Of a stretch of 24,483 nt of DNA, positions 15,522 through 24,218 are shown piece by piece. The stretch is from IMG/VR virus record IMGVR_UViG_3300029309_000333, positions 1 through 24,483 of that record. The stretch is one strand, 5' to 3'. Source of the stretch: a virus. The notes beneath the pieces were generated by a model. It searched no databases and was not told the DNA's origin. It was given only the letters and a program-made list of their open reading frames with translations. A program made the translations under genes and the position numbers. Every line of letters begins with the position of its first letter. Position 1 is the stretch's first letter.

Positions 15522-16967
15522 TTATGCGTACTCGATTCGTACTGCAGTTGCTTTACCTGAAGCGTTAGCTGCAAGTTGCTCAAATCCTAAGGACTGAGAA
15601 GCTACTATAGCAGTTCTCTGGTTTGCAATCTCTAAATCACTCTGTATACTTACACCACGTAGACGTGGAATTACAAAGTTAGAGGTATTTACAAGTAGTG
15701 CTGCAGTTGTAGTCTCTGCTCCTGATGCTCCCAACTTATTAGCTAAGAACTCACTCGCAAGAACTGGGACTCCATAAACATATCCGAGAGTACCTGTTAC
15801 ACGTGGGTTTACACCTCGTGTAGCAGCTGCGTCGTTTCCGACCTCTGCGATGTCTGCGAATCCTGCATCATCCATCAATCTGTAATACTGATCATATGGT
15901 AAGATCAATGCAAGTTGTGCTGGATCCATTCCATATTTACCCATTTCTTGTCTCAAGCTCAAGATATTTGCTGCAGATACTACATCTGACTCATCAGTTG
16001 CAGATGCATCTTTATCAGCTACTGTTGTTGAATCGGCTGCAAGGAATGAACCTGCACCGTCTGTTCCAGCGCCACCAATTAGACCTGCAATTGAAGAGTT
16101 ACCAACTAAAATAGCAGAGTCAATTGCTCTTGCATGAGCAGTTGCTAATTGTTGAGTAAGCATTGGTAATAAAGATACTATTACTTGCTCATCAGTATCA
16201 GCACCAATAAATGTTCCTGCGATTACTCGCTTTGCATTTAATACTCTCTCTTGAACTGTGTAGTTATTATCTGAGTTGTCTGTCATCATATTTTGTGAGG
16301 CAGTAATACCAGTTGAAGCAAATGTTGCTAAACCTGGCTCTGGTGCAAATGGTAGTACAGTTGCTCCAGATTGTACAGGAATCTCACGGAAAAGTTGAGC
16401 TACTTTATACTGAGCTGATACTTCTGTTTCAAACGCAGTGGTCATAGTAACATCGAGACCTACAGTTGAACCTGCCAATGAAGCAAAATCAACAGTCTTT
16501 TGTTGAAGTTGCTTAGCATAGTCTGTCTCCCATCCTTTTCCAGTTACAGTACCAAGAATCTTCGCTTGAAGAAGTTCTTTACCATGATCTTCAATTCGAC
16601 CGCTTCTGTTGTCAAAAGACTTCTTGCTATTTCTCATAGCTTCGATTTCAGAAGCTTTCTCTTTCAAGTCTTTTTCGTACTTGTCAGTGATTGCTTTGAT
16701 ATCTAGTTCTTTTTGAGCTTCAAAATCTTTTTGAACATCTGCTAGTAACTTTTCAGTACCAGACTCAATTCCAGACTTAACTTTAGACTGGATTTTTTCG
16801 GCTTCAATTGCCTTAGCAGTTTGAGCTTCTTCAGCTGCTTTTGCTTCAGCTTCTTCTGCCGCTTTTTGCTCGGCCGCTTTCATTGCAATTTTAGCAGCAG
16901 TTTCCTCTGCTACTTTTTTAGCAAAAGCTTCCAAGTCGACTTCGGGAGTTTTTGTTTCTTCCGACAT
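15522..16967 (-). CDS. Predicted nested scaffold-capsid product from an internal start
   Basis: In the same frame as the protease-capsid fusion, ATG at 16965-16967 (MSEETKTPEVDL) has AAAGGAGA six bases upstream, better than the site of the full-length gene. It would give a 481-residue protein with no protease domain: scaffold-like coiled coil plus capsid. This resembles nested in-frame scaffold genes such as lambda C/Nu3, but here the nested product includes the capsid itself. It would supply the many capsid copies while keeping protease copies low. The start is seen in sequence; its use is inference. Confidence 0.65.
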   Translation of the reverse strand: MSEETKTPEVDLEAFAKKVAEETAAKIAMKAAEQKAAEEAEAKAAEEAQTAKAIEAEKIQSKVKSGIESGTEKLLADVQKDFEAQKELDIKAITDKYEKDLKEKASEIEAMRNSKKSFDNRSGRIEDHGKELLQAKILGTVTGKGWETDYAKQLQQKTVDFASLAGSTVGLDVTMTTAFETEVSAQYKVAQLFREIPVQSGATVLPFAPEPGLATFASTGITASQNMMTDNSDNNYTVQERVLNAKRVIAGTFIGADTDEQVIVSLLPMLTQQLATAHARAIDSAILVGNSSIAGLIGGAGTDGAGSFLAADSTTVADKDASATDESDVVSAANILSLRQEMGKYGMDPAQLALILPYDQYYRLMDDAGFADIAEVGNDAAATRGVNPRVTGTLGYVYGVPVLASEFLANKLGASGAETTTAALLVNTSNFVIPRLRGVSIQSDLEIANQRTAIVASQSLGFEQLAANASGKATAVRIEYA

Positions 16968-17498
16968 ATCTATCTCCTTTGAAGAGGATTGCTCCTCGCT
17001 TTTAAAAGTTTTCTTGAAGTTTTCGTATTCCGTTTCAGAATCGAATGACTTCGCTAGAGAAAAAGTAGCTGCTTGATTGCAAGGTACCGATACAACTGAT
17101 ACTTCAAACAACTCAGCGTCCTTTATCATTAATCCGTCGGTTTCTTTCATGTAGTCAGCGTCCTTGACCTTGAAACCGACAGAAAACGCTCCAAGGACAC
17201 CGTCTTTGATTAATTCTGCACATTCAGCATGTTTACTAATTTTTGCTTCCATGTGCAAGCCATCATTCGTAGGAGTAACTTTTGTTGCTCGACCGATCGG
17301 CTTATTATAATCGTGGTTAAATAAAATAATAGGATTCTTTTCAAAATTACCTAAACCACCTTTTGTCCAAGCATCAGCAGTTATACTATCACCTGCTCTA
17401 TCAAAAGCATTTGTGCTAGCCATTCCTCGAACCATTACTGATCCATCTTCTTGTGCTTCTGACTTAAACGTAGATGTTAAATTGAATAATTTATTCAT
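15522..17498 (-). CDS. Prohead protease-scaffold-major capsid fusion
   Basis: One 658-residue frame joins three parts. Residues 1-150 match the HK97 prohead protease (peptidase U35): NHD with His62, GAFSVGF with Ser106, and a VSVVSVP strand (133-139). Residues ~150-300 are Ala/Glu/Lys-rich predicted coiled coil, like the HK97 delta/scaffold region. Residues ~310-658 are an HK97-fold major capsid protein, ending with an RGVSIQSDLEIANQRTAIVA stretch. Separate genes are the rule, so the fusion is notable. I start it at the third of three consecutive ATGs (17498), which has AGAAGG eight bases upstream; starts at 17504 or 17501 are possible. It overlaps the portal end by 8 nt. A strong internal ribosome binding site before Met178 suggests a second, shorter product. 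Confidence 0.9.
   Translation of the reverse strand: MNKLFNLTSTFKSEAQEDGSVMVRGMASTNAFDRAGDSITADAWTKGGLGNFEKNPIILFNHDYNKPIGRATKVTPTNDGLHMEAKISKHAECAELIKDGVLGAFSVGFKVKDADYMKETDGLMIKDAELFEVSVVSVPCNQAATFSLAKSFDSETEYENFKKTFKSEEQSSSKEIDMSEETKTPEVDLEAFAKKVAEETAAKIAMKAAEQKAAEEAEAKAAEEAQTAKAIEAEKIQSKVKSGIESGTEKLLADVQKDFEAQKELDIKAITDKYEKDLKEKASEIEAMRNSKKSFDNRSGRIEDHGKELLQAKILGTVTGKGWETDYAKQLQQKTVDFASLAGSTVGLDVTMTTAFETEVSAQYKVAQLFREIPVQSGATVLPFAPEPGLATFASTGITASQNMMTDNSDNNYTVQERVLNAKRVIAGTFIGADTDEQVIVSLLPMLTQQLATAHARAIDSAILVGNSSIAGLIGGAGTDGAGSFLAADSTTVADKDASATDESDVVSAANILSLRQEMGKYGMDPAQLALILPYDQYYRLMDDAGFADIAEVGNDAAATRGVNPRVTGTLGYVYGVPVLASEFLANKLGASGAETTTAALLVNTSNFVIPRLRGVSIQSDLEIANQRTAIVASQSLGFEQLAANASGKATAVRIEYA
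16965..16980 (-). promoter_or_regulatory. Internal ribosome binding site of the capsid precursor
   Basis: AAAGGAGATAGAT followed by ATG on the minus strand: near-consensus Shine-Dalgarno with 6-nt spacing, inside the protease-capsid frame. A small hairpin with a GCAA loop (16984-16997) lies just upstream. Confidence 0.7.
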
Positions 17499-18675
17499 CA
17501 TCATTACCTTCTTCTGGGGGTCGCCCACCTTGACTAGGATCTACGGCACTGCCTGCTATATTTTGTGGAATTCGTATATCATCTTGCCCTTCCATCAAAT
17601 CATACCCTAATCTATCTCTTGCTTCATTTATTGTAATAATGCCTCCGTTTACTAATGCAGTATAATAACCTGCTGCATCTCGTAGTTCGGGTTGTAGTGC
17701 TGCAATATCTGATACATCCTCTTTTATTAAAAATCCAAAGTACTTACATAAAGCATGATTAACTTTTCGTACTATTGGTATAATTGTCTCTAAATAATAA
17801 AGACGCATATTTGGACGTATATTTGCATTATTACCAGAGTCCATCAATATTGGCGGAACTCCTAGAGCTTTCAAGATAATTTTTTCATTTCGATCTATAG
17901 CATCTTGAAAATCTAATTCTTTAAAGTTTGTATTTGTGTAAGAATCTATTTCGATTCCTCCATCTAGTATAAGAGGTCTTCGACCTCCAGAGTCTGGTCT
18001 ATAACGAAGTGACCATGACTGTATCATTCTTTCTTTTATTTTTTCTGACAAAGTATTCGGGCTTTTTAACACTAGTCCTGGAACTGCTCCATTTTTAAAA
18101 AAGTTGTCTTGAAACTGTCTCATATTTGTCATAAGTTGCATTGTTCTCAATGCTGGTTTTAGTCGAGACACTCCTCTATAAATTGAATAGAAAGAGTTTT
18201 CTTTTATATGTATCATTTCATTTGGAGAATAATCTATATCATTATATCTATACTTTTCTATAAAAGTTTCAGAGTCTCCATGTATTGTTACTTTATCTGC
18301 TGGAACATGATATAAGTGTGCTCCGTCAAAGTAAATAAATATATTTCCATCAAGTAAATAATCTGTAATTAAGTTTCTTTTAAATGCACTAATATCTTGA
18401 TAAGGGTTTGGCTCATCATTAAGTAACAGTTCAACTCTAGCTCTTTTAACCCCTTTAACAACTCCAGGAGTTCGCATACTACGTAAAACTGTTGCTGGTA
18501 TTTCTGCAACATCGTCAACAATCATATTAACGCCTCTGTTGACTATTTCTAAATTTTCATAGTAAAACTCATAACTGCGAGTACTTTCTCTAGAAGATTC
18601 TTGAGATGTTCCAATATATTGCTGTATTGGATTTAGTTTTTCTCGTCGTCCAAATATTCTATCATACCAAGCCAT
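17491..18675 (-). CDS. Portal protein, HK97 family
   Basis: A 394-residue portal protein, forming the dodecameric DNA channel at one capsid vertex. The order of recognisable parts is typical of the HK97-type family: an N-terminal helical region with NRGVNMIVDDVAEIPATV, a strand pair near NEPNPYQDISAFKR and YLLDGNIFIYFDG, a KNGAVPGLVLKSP stretch, then GIEIDSYTNTNFKELDFQDA with the ALGVPPILMD clip/stem signature. The C-terminus (from about residue 370) is a disordered Pro/Gly/acidic tail, as usual. It overlaps the HNH gene by 14 nt upstream and the protease-capsid gene by 8 nt downstream. Confidence 0.95.
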   Translation of the reverse strand: MAWYDRIFGRREKLNPIQQYIGTSQESSRESTRSYEFYYENLEIVNRGVNMIVDDVAEIPATVLRSMRTPGVVKGVKRARVELLLNDEPNPYQDISAFKRNLITDYLLDGNIFIYFDGAHLYHVPADKVTIHGDSETFIEKYRYNDIDYSPNEMIHIKENSFYSIYRGVSRLKPALRTMQLMTNMRQFQDNFFKNGAVPGLVLKSPNTLSEKIKERMIQSWSLRYRPDSGGRRPLILDGGIEIDSYTNTNFKELDFQDAIDRNEKIILKALGVPPILMDSGNNANIRPNMRLYYLETIIPIVRKVNHALCKYFGFLIKEDVSDIAALQPELRDAAGYYTALVNGGIITINEARDRLGYDLMEGQDDIRIPQNIAGSAVDPSQGGRPPEEGNDDE

Positions 18676-19105: not shown

Positions 19106-20410
19106 TCAGAAGGAGATTTGTGAAGTTTCAAACGAGTACAATGCATATCGAAGTGCATCTGCCATGTGAGATGCCATGTTGTGCTTTGGTCGTTCCTTCA
19201 TGAGATTGGGATTAGGGTCCCATTGATACGCGTCCAAACAGCTGAGGGACTCTGTGGCTTGTTGGTCAACGTAAAGTTTGTCGTTGTCAACCAAACTTGA
19301 GACATGTCCAATTCCGTCAAGTACAGACTTCTTTGCGTTAATGGTTGTAATATCGTAATTTTGCGCGAGATCGAACCGTGTTTGTTGAGCAGCTGAATCA
19401 ATATAAATGAAATCAATATCCCAGCGAGTAATGAGCTTCTGGATTTCGGTAGCATGCTGTTCCGTCGTCCGCTCCGCATTAAAATATTCGTCAAGTAGAT
19501 AGTATTTGTCCTCATCCCAGTCGTATGCGATTACGCACATCGCGGTCGGGTCTTTGTAACCGACATCTAGACCTGCAAAGACATCCATTTTTGTTGTGTC
19601 AAACTGAGACAGATCTTTGACATTTTCCTCGAAGTTAAACCTCCATATCTGACCTTCATAGGTATTGAAGTCTGCTTCGTACTCTTGTTTAAATTCTGCT
19701 TCTGACATAGACTTACGGGCTTCTGCTATATCAGTTTCTGACATACGAGGATTATCTACATAAGATGCTTTGATACTTGCCCACTCTGGAAACTCATCTG
19801 AGAATCCTCTGTAGAAAAACTCCGCAAACCAATTGTTGCGACCTCGTGGTGTAGATATAAATATTGCTTTTGAGTTATCTTTATCAAGCGTGGGACGTAG
19901 TGCTACATTAAAAGCATCTTTGCCGTCTGCAAGTGCCGCTTCGTCAAAGATGATAAGATCGTATGAACGACCCACACATGAATCTACTTGATTGATAGAG
20001 CCCATTCTAACTGTAGATCCATTTGACATTTCGATAACTTTATCTTTTGCGTTATCTTTTGTTACTTCTAGTTCAAACTGTTTTATAAGATTTCTTTGTA
20101 AATCAAAAGAAATCTGAGACAAAGCATAATTGGGTGACATTATTAAGATATTTGAGCCAGGTACTAAAGACACGAGCTGTCCAATAATATTGGCTATATA
20201 TGTTTTGCCTTGTCGTCTGGAGACTGCGGCAGAGACAAAACGGTATTTTGGATTATTTATCGCGTTGATAATTGCTATCTGCGAAGGTAACGGTGTGACT
20301 TTCAGTAAATTCAAATAAGAATTTACTGGTAGTTTTAAGAACTTTGTCTCAGATTGTAAATCGATTATTTCGTCGCAGAGAATATCTCTGCGACTTACTT
20401 CTACTGCCAT
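19106..20410 (-). CDS. terL: Terminase large subunit
   Basis: A 434-residue packaging motor ATPase/nuclease with all expected motifs. N-terminal ATPase: Walker A SRRQGKTY (64-71), Walker B LIIFDEA (152-158, Asp156-Glu157), coupling motif STPRG (186-190). C-terminal RuvC-like nuclease: acidic residues Asp282 (GLDVGYKDPTA), Asp338 (YIDSAAQQ) and Asp418 (HMADALRY). It is full length and looks active. It starts one base after the stop of the preceding 53-aa gene and ends just before promoter P2. The small subunit lies about 3.3 kb upstream rather than next door. Confidence 0.97.
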   Translation of the reverse strand: MAVEVSRRDILCDEIIDLQSETKFLKLPVNSYLNLLKVTPLPSQIAIINAINNPKYRFVSAAVSRRQGKTYIANIIGQLVSLVPGSNILIMSPNYALSQISFDLQRNLIKQFELEVTKDNAKDKVIEMSNGSTVRMGSINQVDSCVGRSYDLIIFDEAALADGKDAFNVALRPTLDKDNSKAIFISTPRGRNNWFAEFFYRGFSDEFPEWASIKASYVDNPRMSETDIAEARKSMSEAEFKQEYEADFNTYEGQIWRFNFEENVKDLSQFDTTKMDVFAGLDVGYKDPTAMCVIAYDWDEDKYYLLDEYFNAERTTEQHATEIQKLITRWDIDFIYIDSAAQQTRFDLAQNYDITTINAKKSVLDGIGHVSSLVDNDKLYVDQQATESLSCLDAYQWDPNPNLMKERPKHNMASHMADALRYALYSFETSQISF

Positions 20411-21139: not shown

Positions 21140-21457
21140 TTATTTTTTCCCCGCATATGCATTGGCTCCAAAGAAGGCGGAAACCAAAGCCGCGATAGCT
21201 ACAAAGTATGTGGGAGCAATATCACCAATTATTTTTGCGGCGCTATCTAAACCGAATAATGATGTGCAAAAAATACCGAAAGGATAAAACAACATTCCCC
21301 ATAAGGAGAACCATGTCATCTTTCTCATTGCATCCCGTTGTGCGTCTTGATCTTCTAGTTCTTTTCTTCGGAACTCAAGATACATTTCTTGTTCGGTGTC
21401 AGAAACTTTTCCGTCACCATTAGTATCAGCTGGATGAAATTTCTTTTCTTCTACCAT
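21140..21457 (-). CDS. EF-hand membrane protein
   Basis: A 105-residue protein. Residues 11-22, DTNGDGKVSDTE, form a complete EF-hand loop (Asp1, Asn3, Asp5, Ser9, Glu12), so it should bind calcium. A charged helix (23-46) leads to two membrane segments (about 48-70 and 80-100) and a short Lys tail. I recognise this layout from small marine phage proteins. An upstream in-frame TTG at 21475 would add six residues, but ATG at 21457 is the better start, overlapping the previous gene by 7 nt. The role is unknown; a calcium-sensing holin-like or envelope protein is one possibility. Confidence 0.82.
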   Translation of the reverse strand: MVEEKKFHPADTNGDGKVSDTEQEMYLEFRRKELEDQDAQRDAMRKMTWFSLWGMLFYPFGIFCTSLFGLDSAAKIIGDIAPTYFVAIAALVSAFFGANAYAGKK

Positions 21458-21747
21458 TTTACTAAGTTTGCCCAATATGCCGCAGACATTTTGCCTTTAG
21501 CTATATTCTTGCGATGTCTTGCTTTGAAAGATGCTCGCTTTCTTTTCATTGCTTGACTTTCACCAGGTTTAGGTTTACCAGCAGTTTTTGCACCTTGCTG
21601 ACCGAATCGTATTGTTTTTACTTTGTGTCCGACTTTAGCCACAACTATGTGTGACTTAGTTTTATGACCAGGAGTACGCTTTGGCTTGTTGTAGCCTTTT
21701 ACTCCTGCTCTTTTTAGTAAACTTTTACCTCTTCTTGCGTGTGGCAC
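21451..21747 (-). CDS. Very basic small protein with C-terminal SFKARH...YWANLVKW motif
   Basis: A 98-residue, Lys/Arg-rich protein with a single acidic residue. The conserved-looking part is the C-terminal ~55 residues: RFGQQG, KPGESQAMKRKRASFKARHR and SAAYWANLVKW. The pattern SF-[KR]-ARH ... YW ... W is one I have met in small proteins of phages and large DNA viruses, without a known function. The start is GTG at 21747 (MPHARRGKS). It overlaps the upstream gene by 23 nt and the EF-hand gene by 7 nt. Likely nucleic-acid contact or a virion-internal role is inferred only from charge. Confidence 0.8.
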   Translation of the reverse strand: MPHARRGKSLLKRAGVKGYNKPKRTPGHKTKSHIVVAKVGHKVKTIRFGQQGAKTAGKPKPGESQAMKRKRASFKARHRKNIAKGKMSAAYWANLVKW

Positions 21748-21946
21748 GTTTTCGTTTCCCTAGTCTTATTCTTTCTTGAATTAGACTCCGTGGGACTGTT
21801 TTTCCCTCTTTGTATAGTTTTGAAATCTTTTTCAAAACTGCTGCAAGTCTTGTACGTTTAGAACCTGATGTACCTCCTAAGTATTTTTTAGGTAACTTAC
21901 TTTTTCGATCTTTTGGAACGCTTTTTCGTTTTCTTCTTTTTACCAT
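21725..21946 (-). CDS. Very basic small protein with KYLGG motif
   Basis: A 73-residue protein starting MVKRRKRKSVPKDRKSK. It carries KYLGGTSGSKR followed by helical, Lys-rich sequence (KKISKLYKEGKTVPRSLIQ) and a basic tail. The frame is open further upstream, but those 29 residues would lie wholly over the preceding gene and do not resemble the rest, so I take ATG at 21946. It overlaps the upstream gene by 50 nt. The K-Y-L-x-G-x-x-G-x-x-R pattern recurs in phage and large-virus small proteins of unknown role. Confidence 0.75.
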   Translation of the reverse strand: MVKRRKRKSVPKDRKSKLPKKYLGGTSGSKRTRLAAVLKKISKLYKEGKTVPRSLIQERIRLGKRKRATRKKR

Positions 21947-22055
21947 AACCAGATGCATATATAGCACGGCCTTGCAGTTCTGCTTCAGCCTTGCTCTTGT
22001 AAATCTTTCCAGATTTACCCCATCGATATCCACCCTTTACTTTTCTAACGGGCAC
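21897..22055 (-). CDS. Very basic small protein with GGYRWGKSGK motif
   Basis: A 52-residue protein, (M)PVRKVKGGYRWGKSGKIY, then KSKAEAELQGRAIYASGY and a Lys/Arg tail. The GGY-R-WG-x-x-GK core followed by AxxQGRAIYASGY is a well-recurring pattern of small phage proteins whose function I do not know. I choose the GTG at 22055 because the recurrent form of this family starts MPVRKV; an ATG at 22094 would add 13 residues and lengthen the overlap with the upstream gene from 11 to 50 nt. No strong ribosome binding site is seen, so translation is probably coupled. Confidence 0.75.
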   Translation of the reverse strand: MPVRKVKGGYRWGKSGKIYKSKAEAELQGRAIYASGYGKKKKTKKRSKRSKK

Positions 22056-22338
22056 GTTTCTTTCTTTTAATATCGTTATCTTGTGAGTGTCCACCTCTCA
22101 TAAATGAATTTACTCTTCCAAAAGCCCACTGCGACATTGATACTCCAGGACGAGAACCAGAACTTAAATATGCTCCCTGTCCTCGTCTATAAACTCTTGC
22201 AAGTTGTCCATAAGTATATCTTTTACTCTTCTTTGCTTTTGCTCGCAAAGTTTTCTTTACTGACTCACTTAAAGGTCTTGCTCTTCTTTTTGGTGCTGCT
22301 TTCCTTTTTGTTGCTCTTTTCTTTCTACGAACTGCCAC
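22045..22338 (-). CDS. Basic small protein, DUF5824-like motif
   Basis: A 97-residue protein. The first 35 residues are a Lys/Arg/Ala-rich tail. The core at about 36-80 reads SKRYTYGQLARVYRRGQGAY and SRPGVSMSQWAFGRVNSFMR: a helix-turn pattern (YGQLARVYRRG, then G-x-RPG, then QWAxxRVNSF) that I associate, from memory, with DUF5824, a family shared by phages and large DNA viruses with no known function. The start is GTG at 22338 with AGAGG eight bases upstream and a TAGTG overlap with the previous stop. Confidence 0.8.
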   Translation of the reverse strand: MAVRRKKRATKRKAAPKRRARPLSESVKKTLRAKAKKSKRYTYGQLARVYRRGQGAYLSSGSRPGVSMSQWAFGRVNSFMRGGHSQDNDIKRKKRAR

Positions 22339-22637
22339 TATTTTTTCCTCTTTCGAGCATTTCTCAAGCTCGCTTTGCCTTGACGAAAAATACCTGCAAC
22401 TGTTTTCTTTCCCATCACTTTGGCTCTTTGCTCACCTACAGTAAGTATTTGAATTTTTCTTGCATAAGATCTGCGTACTCGTTTTACTTTTGCAACTGTA
22501 GCTCTCGCATCTTTTGCTGTAGCAAACTTTATACGAATAGTGTCTTTTGGATTTTCATCCGTATATAGTCGTCGTCCAGAACCTTTTGGTTTTTTGCCAG
22601 TACCAACTCTAGGATCTTTTCTTTTTCTTTTGCGCAT
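22338..22637 (-). CDS. Very basic small protein with GSGRRLYTDENP motif
   Basis: A 99-residue protein starting MRKRKRKDPRVGTGKKPKGS. The central motif SGRRLYTDENPKDTIRIKF is followed by helices rich in Lys/Arg/Ala (DARATVAKVKRVRRSYARK) and a C-terminal basic tail. I have seen the RRLYTDENPxDT motif in similar marine phage gene clusters, without known function. The frame is open for 21 residues further upstream, but that part overlaps the previous gene completely; ATG at 22637 fits better (29-nt overlap). No clear Shine-Dalgarno is present. Confidence 0.78.
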   Translation of the reverse strand: MRKRKRKDPRVGTGKKPKGSGRRLYTDENPKDTIRIKFATAKDARATVAKVKRVRRSYARKIQILTVGEQRAKVMGKKTVAGIFRQGKASLRNARKRKK

Positions 22638-22809
22638 TTTTATAAGCTGTATGGGAGCTGCCAGGCATAAATCTTTTTGCAGTACCTCTACCATGGGCAT
22701 GAATGCCTTTTAAACCTAATTTTCGTGCTGCTTTTCTTGCTGGTCCCGGACTTTTATATACATGTTTATTTCTTAAAAATGCTGCATGTTTTCTTTTATT
22801 TAATGACAT
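22609..22809 (-). CDS. Very basic small protein without acidic residues
   Basis: A 66-residue protein with 20 Lys/Arg, 5 His and no Asp or Glu. The sequence contains AFLRNKHVYKSPGPARKAAR, then LGLKGIHAHGRG and RFMPGSSHTAY. The motif LGL-x-GxHxHG ... [FY]MPG-x-[ST]H is a recurring one in phage small proteins of unknown function. Its start forms a TAATG overlap with the previous stop. Such an extreme charge suggests binding to nucleic acid or to an acidic partner; this is inference. Confidence 0.8.
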   Translation of the reverse strand: MSLNKRKHAAFLRNKHVYKSPGPARKAARKLGLKGIHAHGRGTAKRFMPGSSHTAYKNAQKKKKRS

Positions 22810-23036
22810 TATTCATAAGATCCTTGTAGGTCGTCCAAAGTTACAGTAGCCTCTGCTTTTTTCATTTTTTCTGCTATGGACTTTTCCTCTTCGATTGTAT
22901 CGTTTTCATCGTATTCTATGGTGGGCATATTTAATTTTTTCATATATGCCAAAGCATCTGTTTTTTTAACAAACTTATATAAACGTTCATTTTTATCTCG
23001 AAAACACCAGCGACCTCTTTTTTTATAAAGTTTCAT
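22809..23036 (-). CDS. Hypothetical protein, basic N-half and acidic C-half
   Basis: A 75-residue protein I do not recognise. Residues 1-35 are basic and aromatic (KLYKKRGRWCFRDKNERLYK), with a strand-turn-strand look and a W-x-F pair. Residues 40-75 are acidic (TIEYDENDTIEEEKS, then VTLDDLQGSYE). It is the only strongly two-sided charge distribution in this cluster of otherwise basic proteins. The start is clear: TAGGAG six bases before the ATG; the TAG of that ribosome binding site is also the stop of the Cys-rich peptide upstream, so translation of the two is probably coupled. Confidence 0.82.
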   Translation of the reverse strand: MKLYKKRGRWCFRDKNERLYKFVKKTDALAYMKKLNMPTIEYDENDTIEEEKSIAEKMKKAEATVTLDDLQGSYE

Positions 23037-23045
23037 ATATGTCTC

Positions 23046-23087
23046 CTAACAACAAGTGCAACTACAACATTTACAACATCTACACAT
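23046..23087 (-). CDS. 13-residue cysteine-rich micro-ORF
   Basis: ATG at 23085-23087 opens a 13-codon frame, MCRCCKCCSCTCC, followed by TAG. Eight of 13 residues are Cys. AGAGG lies eight bases upstream of the ATG. The ATG overlaps the end of the preceding gene (its TAG is inside ATGTGTAG), and the peptide's stop forms the TAGGAG ribosome binding site of the next gene. This placement makes real translation plausible. It is too short for homology; it could be a metal-binding peptide or only a coupling leader. Confidence 0.5.
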   Translation of the reverse strand: MCRCCKCCSCTCC

Positions 23088-23457
23088 TCTTTTTTCCTCT
23101 AAGTTTCATAAGTTTGGCTCGATCCTGTTGAATAATTATAGGATATGGAGCTTGATTATTTTTGCCTTTAGTATATGTAGGATAAGACCACAAATATTCA
23201 CATTTTTCTTGGCAGTCATTTCGATCTGCTACAATGTCGTCCATCTCGTCTAGAGTTAGTCCTTCTACTACGTAAACTAATGCATCTAACGGTTGTTCAT
23301 TCCAGTTTGCTTCTGTGAGCTTCAAAAAGTCTTCATTATAGGGTAGTATTTTTATTTTACCATTAATGTAACTTTCATAACTCCAAGGACAAACATCTTT
23401 AATACTTTTGAAGTATTGAAGCCAAGTACTATCCTCGACTTCTCTTCTTCTTGCCAT
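23080..23457 (-). CDS. Hypothetical protein (DSTWLQYFKSIKDVCPWS family)
   Basis: A 125-residue protein starting MARRREVEDSTWLQYFKSIK. The W-[LI]-x-YFxSIKxVCPWS opening, followed by a proline/aromatic loop (NGKIKILPYN) and a helix with LVYVVEGLTLDEMDDIV, recurs in my memory of marine phage packaging regions, with no known role. A C-terminal stretch with CQEKCEYLWSYP has two cysteines four apart. A TTG at 23499 would add 14 basic residues; ATG at 23457 is preferred because the family normally opens near here. It overlaps the upstream gene by 29 nt. It is less basic than its neighbours and looks like a folded domain. Confidence 0.78.
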   Translation of the reverse strand: MARRREVEDSTWLQYFKSIKDVCPWSYESYINGKIKILPYNEDFLKLTEANWNEQPLDALVYVVEGLTLDEMDDIVADRNDCQEKCEYLWSYPTYTKGKNNQAPYPIIIQQDRAKLMKLRGKKNV

Positions 23458-23554
23458 TCTTTTTCTTTTTCTTCTTGCCCATGCCTTTTTGCTTTGCAAG
23501 AATAGCTCTTTGTAACGCTGGGGGTAGTTTCTTTTGCTTTGCTGTTAATGCCAT
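23429..23554 (-). CDS. 41-residue poly-lysine protein
   Basis: A 41-residue protein, MALTAKQKKLPPALQRAILA followed by KQKGMG, six consecutive Lys, NG and a basic end. A short amphipathic helix (PPALQRAILAKQKG) precedes the Lys tail. TAGGAG lies six bases before the ATG, so it is very likely translated although short. The P-x-x-LQ-[RK]-AILxKKxG opening is familiar from tiny marine phage proteins. The A/G-only stretch coding for the Lys run could cause polymerase or ribosome slippage. Confidence 0.8.
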   Translation of the reverse strand: MALTAKQKKLPPALQRAILAKQKGMGKKKKKKNGKKKRSRG

Positions 23555-23563
23555 TTAATTCTC

Positions 23564-23770
23564 CTACATCTTGGTTAATAGTGTCACTATTACACCAGCT
23601 AGGAACAGAGTCATTGTTCCACCGATTGCTAACATCCTACTTTCTATTCGACGAAGAGCTTCTTCTACATCTGATAGACGTTGAAAACAAGTCTTCCATC
23701 TCTCTTCACACATAACTTCATGTGCTGCAAAATCTTTTTCCAGATCGTGTACTTTTTCAGTCTGTTCCAT
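23564..23770 (-). CDS. XhlA-like coiled-coil membrane protein
   Basis: A 68-residue protein. Residues 3-45 are a charged helix with heptad spacing (LEKDFAAHEVMCEERW, then QRLSDVEEALRRIESR), and residues 47-66 are a membrane segment (IGGTMTLFLAGVIVTLLT), ending in Lys-Met. This layout matches haemolysin XhlA-type proteins, phage membrane proteins that act with holins in lysis. Its ATG overlaps the terminase small subunit end by 14 nt. Lysis involvement is inference from family and topology. Confidence 0.82.
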   Translation of the reverse strand: MEQTEKVHDLEKDFAAHEVMCEERWKTCFQRLSDVEEALRRIESRMLAIGGTMTLFLAGVIVTLLTKM

Positions 23771-24218
23771 TTAGTAGTTTCTCCATAAGCTTTCCATAAT
23801 TACCTTGACCAAATGGAACACCTTCATTAATCTGTACATTGGTTTGGTTTTTAATGTTGCTGCTTTCTGCTTTTGCTAAATCGGCTTGTGCCTTGATTTC
23901 ATCCATGCGCATCTTATGCGCCATCTGTAGTAGGTCTGCTAAGTCTTTTGACGAATACACACCTGTTTCCTGCGCTTCTTCTAGTTTAGAAGCAATCATT
24001 TCATCTAAAACGGTTCCAATGTTATTCTTGTTGCGATAACCCATATCTAAGTAAACTGTGTCAATATATTTCTTTACTTCACGTTTATTTAGTATATCCA
24101 CTACTTTGTTTTCTGCAACCTGAAGATGATCACATACTCCGCGAATATTTCCGAACTGTAGATAACTATTCGCTACTTCTAGTCCCTCAGGTGAAATTGT
24201 AGTTAGTTCTTTTGCCAT
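23757..24218 (-). CDS. terS: Terminase small subunit
   Basis: A 153-residue protein. Residues 9-45 (SPEGLEVANSYLQFGNIRGV, then HLQVAENKVVDILNKREVKK) look like a winged/helix-turn-helix DNA-recognition domain, followed by long helices (about 70-125) for ring assembly and a short C-terminal part (FGQGNYGKLMEKLL) that could bind the large subunit. It would bind the packaging start site (cos or pac) and load the large subunit. Its ATG has no Shine-Dalgarno: promoter P1 ends only 7 nt upstream, so the mRNA should be leaderless or almost so. The large subunit lies about 3.3 kb downstream. Confidence 0.8.
   Translation of the reverse strand: MAKELTTISPEGLEVANSYLQFGNIRGVCDHLQVAENKVVDILNKREVKKYIDTVYLDMGYRNKNNIGTVLDEMIASKLEEAQETGVYSSKDLADLLQMAHKMRMDEIKAQADLAKAESSNIKNQTNVQINEGVPFGQGNYGKLMEKLLNGTD

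Follow-up and report, generated by a model that had tools for sequence, protein, structure and literature searches.

The window analysed here is the whole of IMG/VR virus record IMGVR_UViG_3300029309_000333, a linear fragment of 24,483 bases from a marine phage, and our subject is a cluster of nine minus-strand genes in it that is bounded by the genes for the small and large terminase subunits (terS and terL). Seven of the nine, named b41, b66, b99, b97, b65, b73 and b98 after the length in residues of the listed open reading frame (ORF), encode strongly basic proteins; the other two, named likewise, are g121 and g75. Six of the seven basic proteins have relatives in many phages. We consider it fairly probable that these tiny proteins represent encapsidated head-core (internal virion) proteins in a stand-alone form. 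The link to the phage head is strong, and some head-related role is clearly more probable than encapsidation as such.

Most proteins that carry the conserved cores of this cluster in other phages are capsid proteins or are encoded next to capsid genes. For example, b65 corresponds to the N-terminal residues 1-38 of the head-maturation protease of phage GF-2, in which the DUF2213 domain spans residues 48-216 (E-value 7.5e-36) and whose gene sits between head-morphogenesis and head genes. Similarly, b98 is the C-terminal domain (191-261, 6e-18) of ICP1 ORF125, to which the b98 model pointed through matches to ORF125 and XkdF; the XkdF/S78 (Peptidase_S78_2) protease domain of ORF125 spans residues 36-160 (6.6e-10). 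ICP1 gp125 is a predicted procapsid-maturation protease of a late-expressed capsid cluster, encoded beside the coat and scaffold genes (PMC7567579). The b99 core is the C-terminal domain of a 646-residue ORF located between the portal (5e-124) and major capsid (6e-87) genes of locus L198, adjoining an ORF with an isoelectric point (pI) of 4.2, and is also found within the 373-residue P-TIM68 protein AIR93449 (L091, 3746-4867), encoded directly after the major head genes. A domain related to b66 occurs inside gp15 of the Haloarcula virus HATV-3, encoded between the portal/MuF and capsid genes. These capsid-type partners favour internal virion proteins that are packaged with DNA or injected, one of several shared jobs considered in the initial annotation, whose overall reading is partly supported. 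As a separate observation, AIR93449 also has an internal-head-like N-terminus and a glycine/asparagine-rich tail. Two proteins of 35-41 residues annotated as 'DUF2213 domain-containing' (L086, 4001-4126; L087, 3995-4102) hold the b65 core only, and their label was probably taken over from the fused head proteases.

To follow the cores across genomes, one profile per family was compared with the window plus 573 loci, in all 574 sequences, which deduplication by shared 120-mers reduced to 364 groups that are not necessarily phylogenetically independent. In 45 of 46 groups with b73, b97 was found within 2.5 kb of it. Around b66, b98 was present in 26 of 28 groups and b99 in 16 of 28, and around b65, b98 was present in 26 of 41. 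Relatives of b41 were seen in 59 locus groups and lie close to b98 in 42 of these, although this low-complexity sequence should be treated with care. Most occurrences of b99 are not accompanied by the other five families, but b99 adjoins further small basic families; of 34 groups with the HTVC033P gp36 type, 32 have b99 nearby. Since each of these samples was chosen by one family, co-occurrence was retested in a TerL-anchored sample of 35 deduplicated relatives that have both terminase genes and were not selected for cluster genes. At least one small basic ORF lies between terS and terL in 32 of the 35, and at least three in 22. Here b98 is present in 31, usually as the 3'-most basic gene, whereas b66 is found in 6, b73 and b97 in 6 (always paired, 6/6) and b65 in 1. 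We therefore see the cluster as a cassette of variable content in which b98 is a near-constant member, and the co-occurrence of different cores, a check proposed in the initial annotation, holds up in profile searches.

The cores are also joined to each other. In a fused sample, for which the search started from a sequence close to T4-like carriers, deduplicated single-ORF fusions of b73 and b97 were identified in 25 groups and of b73, b97 and b98 in 14. The 'cytidylyltransferase' polypeptides of T4-like phages, up to 1,383 residues long, bring together b73, b97, sometimes b99, and b98; all four are in one ORF in L366 (1,142 residues) and L374 (1,230 residues). In these carriers a cytidylyltransferase-like domain comes first (phrog_3041 in L374, 9e-80), followed by b73, b97 and often a C-terminal b98. 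Independent models agree on the fusions (Pfam DUF5824, 1e-14; phrog_7595 at the C-terminus of L374, 4e-12), and the same fusion type is present in isolates, namely Melnitz (gp18) and HTVC008M (gp130/gp131). T4-like carriers also hold segments resembling PAP2 phosphatase (L359, L369) and HNH_3 (L366, L374). Repeated fusion of cores that co-occur elsewhere is strong evidence for a shared job of these different basic proteins, and this part of the earlier proposal is well supported.

Adjacent genes of the cluster overlap or almost touch. The cluster and its neighbours, in their order on the minus strand, are as follows.

23757..24218, minus strand: terminase small subunit, bounding the cluster upstream (phrog_3802, E 2.3e-38)
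23564..23770, minus strand: 68-residue coiled-coil/transmembrane protein, conserved beside terS
23429..23554, minus strand: b41, 41 residues, Lys/Arg 41%, no acidic residue
23080..23457, minus strand: g121, non-basic, probable ATG start at 23457
22809..23036, minus strand: g75, 75 residues, mixed charge, only three close orthologues seen
22609..22809, minus strand: b66, 66 residues, core IHxHGxG...MxGxxH
22338..22637, minus strand: b99, 99 residues, core RRLYTDENPKDT...GEQRAKVMGK
22045..22338, minus strand: b97, 97 residues, C-terminal half of Pfam DUF5824, phrog_28338
21897..22055, minus strand: b65, probably 52 residues from GTG 22055, core MPVRKVKGGYRWGKSGK, phrog_31267
21725..21946, minus strand: b73, 73 residues, start ATG 21946, core PKDxKxxxPKKYLGG
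21451..21747, minus strand: b98, 98 residues, phrog_7595, core IRFGxxG...SFKARH...SAAYWxxxVKW
21140..21457, minus strand: EF-hand-like (DTNGDGKVSDTE) and transmembrane protein, downstream neighbour of the cluster, TTG 21475 a possible start
19106..20410, minus strand: terminase large subunit, bounding the cluster downstream (phrog_2, E 2e-45)
15522..17528, minus strand: fusion of head-maturation protease and major capsid protein, the phage's own protease (phrog_80, phrog_617)

Between the EF-hand-like gene and terL lie a 189-residue gene (phrog_1158) and a gene for a 53-residue transmembrane protein, and terL is followed by an HNH-like gene, the portal gene and the protease-capsid fusion. The latter is apparent in a 668-residue ORF matching phrog_80 over residues 5-286 (2e-37) and phrog_617 over residues 17-633 (2e-26). 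In the 111-residue ORF at 21140-21457, DTNGDGKVSDTE is followed by a predicted hydrophobic region, and its Pfam match is far under the cut-off.

The arrangement described in the initial annotation, nine overlapping small genes in about 2.1 kb between the terminase genes, proved right in coordinates, overlaps and composition. It had counted six strongly basic proteins of 41-99 residues; their basicity is as described (Lys plus Arg 30-42%, pI of at least 10.7), but there are seven of them, and the 66-residue protein is not the only one that lacks Asp and Glu, as b41 lacks them too. For b65 the most likely start, judging from the sequences of its relatives, is GTG 22055 (52 residues, MPVRKVKGGYRWGKSGK...) rather than that of the 65-residue form, because the relatives share this start and begin with MPV(R/H/M)KVKGG. 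Wherever it could be estimated, pairwise dN/dS of the basic genes against close orthologues is 0.02-0.13, selection on b73 being estimated by the pooled ratio only. Pooled pN/pS is 0.20-0.33 for all seven basic genes (0.20 for b41), compared with 0.20 for TerL; the ratio of g75 is higher, 0.56, based on three close orthologues only. The basic genes are thus under purifying selection resembling that of TerL. The cores were found again in hundreds of IMG/VR contigs. Chance or spurious frames are ruled out by this selection together with the in-frame reuse of the cores within long proteins. Repeats of a single gene are ruled out as well: the cores match different profiles and form separate families, as had been noticed initially.

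Several of these families are already known, with no function assigned: phrog_7595, phrog_28338, phrog_31267 and Pfam DUF5824. The expectation that the cores recur in phages as such families is borne out for b98, b97 and b65. The relationship is clearest for b98, which matches phrog_7595 over its full length (E 1.3e-39, profile positions 7-96 of 96), with 27 invariant columns in the alignment. Its relatives were found in 46 phage records, including phages of Roseobacter, Synechococcus and Prochlorococcus and Puniceispirillum phage HMO-2011, and the family reaches the RFGDPNM...FRARH...YWSC type of CRP-901, Kolga and HTVC008M. Structure comparison of b98 gave no fold match in the PDB (best E 0.72). 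b97 matches DUF5824 (PF19141) with 29.9 bits against a curated cut-off of 25, over positions 65-113 of 127, that is, the C-terminal half only. An AlphaFold model of b97 has a pLDDT of 79 and four helices; the b97 model matched bacteriophage DUF5824 proteins, and its only matches to giant viruses were non-significant. For b66, the match to DUF3721 (PF12518), 23.6 bits, is under the cut-off of 27 and does not establish membership. The b66 core IHxHGxG...MxGxxH has three invariant His residues, kept even in the haloarchaeal virus protein, and these may form a metal site. In the open-access literature we found nothing on DUF5824 or DUF3721, DUF5872 only in an unrelated genome paper, and nothing that links these families to one another. 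The suggestion of an undescribed system is thus only partly right, as it may hold for the connection between the families but not for the families themselves.

The positive charge resides largely in the flanks of the stand-alone proteins. Net flank charge per 100 residues, stand-alone versus fused, is +34 versus +1 for b97, +38 versus +6.5 for b73 and +23.5 versus -12 for b98 (p < 1e-11). Fused cores have neutral or acidic surroundings, and Lys/Arg tails are confined to the stand-alone versions. Moreover, the cores of b99, b73 and b98 are themselves less basic when fused, and the HATV-3 copy of the b66-type domain is acidic. Extreme basicity is thus mainly a trait of the stand-alone format.

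These findings can be combined into a possible mechanism. The core domain would dock inside the procapsid, on the scaffold, capsid protein or protease, the Lys/Arg tail would bind the incoming genome, and the proteins would stay with the DNA and probably be ejected together with it. Six cores that elsewhere reside in head-maturation proteases, capsid-cluster proteins or T4-type internal-head polypeptides are mini-genes here, most of them with tails. Two of the proteins, b73 and b97, may jointly rebuild a single DUF5824 domain. By itself b73 has no DUF5824 match, but the homologous segment of HTVC008M matches profile positions 1-53 with 20.1 bits, below the cut-off of 25, and fused copies (e.g. 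in L349) read PKDKKTGLPKKYVSGL, near-identical to the stand-alone gp44 of P-HS2. Because of these two resemblances, b73 is probably the N-terminal half of DUF5824, and the phage probably makes one DUF5824 domain from two genes. In the window the two halves are encoded in reversed order with b65 between them, whereas Pfam treats DUF5824 as one domain with no assigned function. We would tentatively go further and suggest, though with somewhat less than even confidence, that tailed phages share a small head-core domain toolkit in three formats: protease appendages, T4-type polypeptide strings and the tailed mini-gene cassette. The cassette would then be an unrecognised multi-component internal-virion system with a two-gene DUF5824, in which the tails replace a targeting sequence.

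Phage T4 provides the relevant background. Its internal proteins enter the prohead by means of ten residues at their N-terminus, MKTYQEFIAE; of these, positions 4 and 7 are important for targeting and positions 8 and 10 for processing. The small basic ones are packed in the head at about 300 copies each, and many are ejected (PMC9026906). We searched the first 15 residues for the spacing of the T4 capsid-targeting sequence MKTYQEFIAEA and found it in 28 of 64 fused carriers. The corresponding figure for other phage loci is 22 of 978 ORFs (p 6e-24), and none of 40 control coding sequences of HTVC008M has it. Cytidylyltransferase orthologues have been detected in virions of S-SM1 (T4-GC190; PMC3037559) and S-CREM2 (ORF154; PMC10665884), and an NMNAT-like protein in those of S-SCSM1 (PMC9602691). 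The S-ShM2 cytidylyltransferase, which belongs to the orthologue group of the virion-detected S-SM1 protein, begins with MKKFSTFISEA.

Nonetheless, a number of observations weigh against an internal virion role. The T4-type pattern is also present in 48 of 242 other ORFs of the carrier loci. The HTVC008M polypeptide does not have it, and neither does any of the seven window proteins within its first 15 residues. A first, stricter pattern gave 9 of 64 versus 8 of 245; it missed several visibly similar N-termini and was loosened after the data had been seen, so that the targeting-motif statistic is suggestive only. The virion-detected cytidylyltransferases are shorter and contain none of the small domains, to which S-ShM2 GC190 likewise gave no clear match; because the detected orthologues align only outside these domains, the virion evidence is indirect. 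The structural proteome of P-SS2 is uninformative, since the 100 kb searched contains no family member. Furthermore, some carriers are not located among capsid genes, b98 adjoins lysis genes in some podophages (CRP-9, ICBM2), and it could not be confirmed that HATV-3 gp15, in which the b66 domain is found, is a protease.

Other explanations share part of this evidence. The proteins might be procapsid assembly factors that are not retained, i.e. cofactors of the protease or scaffold (substrate adaptors or scaffold-neutralising peptides) that leave or are degraded before completion. Such a role would suit b65 and b98 as terminal domains of protease proteins themselves, and basic peptides would bind acidic scaffolds, for which the acidic ORF next to the b99 carrier of L198 is an example. 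Yet the cassette persists in the window phage, whose protease is fused to the capsid protein, and the T4-like polypeptides have N-termini of the internal-head type and orthologues that stay in virions, making this explanation rather unlikely. We regard as improbable that the proteins are injected or late effectors of host takeover, with cores acting on host nucleic acid, transcription or NAD metabolism and the head serving for delivery only. T4 Alt and IPI are precedents (PMC9026906), and T4-like carriers start with an NMNAT/cytidylyltransferase-like domain, some also including the PAP2- or HNH-like segments mentioned above. However, the searches revealed neither a catalytic family nor a solved-structure relative for the small proteins, and two cores belong to head proteases, enzymes that are not directed at the host.

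It is very improbable that the proteins would be protamine-like DNA-condensing peptides in which charge alone matters. Their composition and location beside packaging genes fit, but core conservation goes well beyond charge, as the invariant columns of b98 illustrate. Fused copies without basic flanks and the acidic HATV-3 copy likewise speak against plain DNA condensation as the core function, which the initial annotation had considered. Nothing was found for the RNA- or ribosome-directed activity it had also listed; a relationship to ribosomal proteins was rejected, matches being insignificant (b98 to chloroplast L24, E 0.35). Finally, unrelated accessory genes collecting at a permissive terS-terL insertion site would account for the content differing among the 35 TerL-anchored loci. 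Given the prevalence of b98, the near-obligate b73-b97 pair and, above all, the repeated fusion of the same cores, which strongly disfavours this idea, we see hardly any likelihood in it.

Internal virion proteins remain our preferred interpretation, and the closest known system is that of T4. Like the window set, T4 IPI, IPII and IPIII (and Alt) are several small, different, non-homologous and partly basic proteins (PMC9026906), and the window set is encoded with head and packaging genes, as expected of T4-type internal head proteins. The T4 proteins are packed in the prohead core and many are ejected with DNA (PMC9026906), the role that we propose for the window proteins. In contrast to them, the window proteins show no sequence relation to T4 internal proteins and no N-terminal capsid-targeting sequence, that motif being found only in the large fused carriers of T4-like marine phages; nor are the T4 genes located between terS and terL. 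The GF-2 (DUF2213) and ICP1 (Peptidase_S78_2/XkdF) proteases carry b65 and b98 as terminal domains, but no small protein of the window matches a protease domain; what they share with the DUF2213 and S78 proteases are the accessory terminal domains only. b98 is a clear member of phrog_7595, for which PHROGs gives no function, and the link of this family to the C-terminal domain of the S78 protease and to the polypeptides of T4-like phages comes from the present analysis.

If these proteins do belong to the head interior, families recurring in hundreds of aquatic phage contigs would gain one testable role, and the series of tiny basic ORFs in phage genomes, overlooked in annotation, would be explained. 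The occurrence of the same domains in ICP1 and T4-like phages offers laboratory-accessible entry points; for ICP1, coat and scaffold proteins are established to give procapsid-like particles (PMC10945586). If the tails do take the place of the targeting sequence, phages would have a second route for loading proteins into the head. Isolates with stand-alone forms are P-HS2 (gp44-gp47), HTVC033P (gp36-gp42), HTVC202P (gp55-gp56), CRP-1 and S-CBS2. A comparable row is encoded by Pelagibacter phage HTVC033P, in which gp36-gp42 (L090, 4710-6055) form an uninterrupted series of seven small basic ORFs; one of them, gp40, is related to b99. Unlike in the window, they have mostly other cores (NYTKPGMRK...GQWSARKAQ, SLKAWGKQKWRT) and are next to lysis genes rather than flanked by the two terminase genes. 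GQWSARKAQ and SLKAWGKQKWRT are themselves further recurrent cores, and in L014 and L068 the KWRT core precedes b98 in a fusion.

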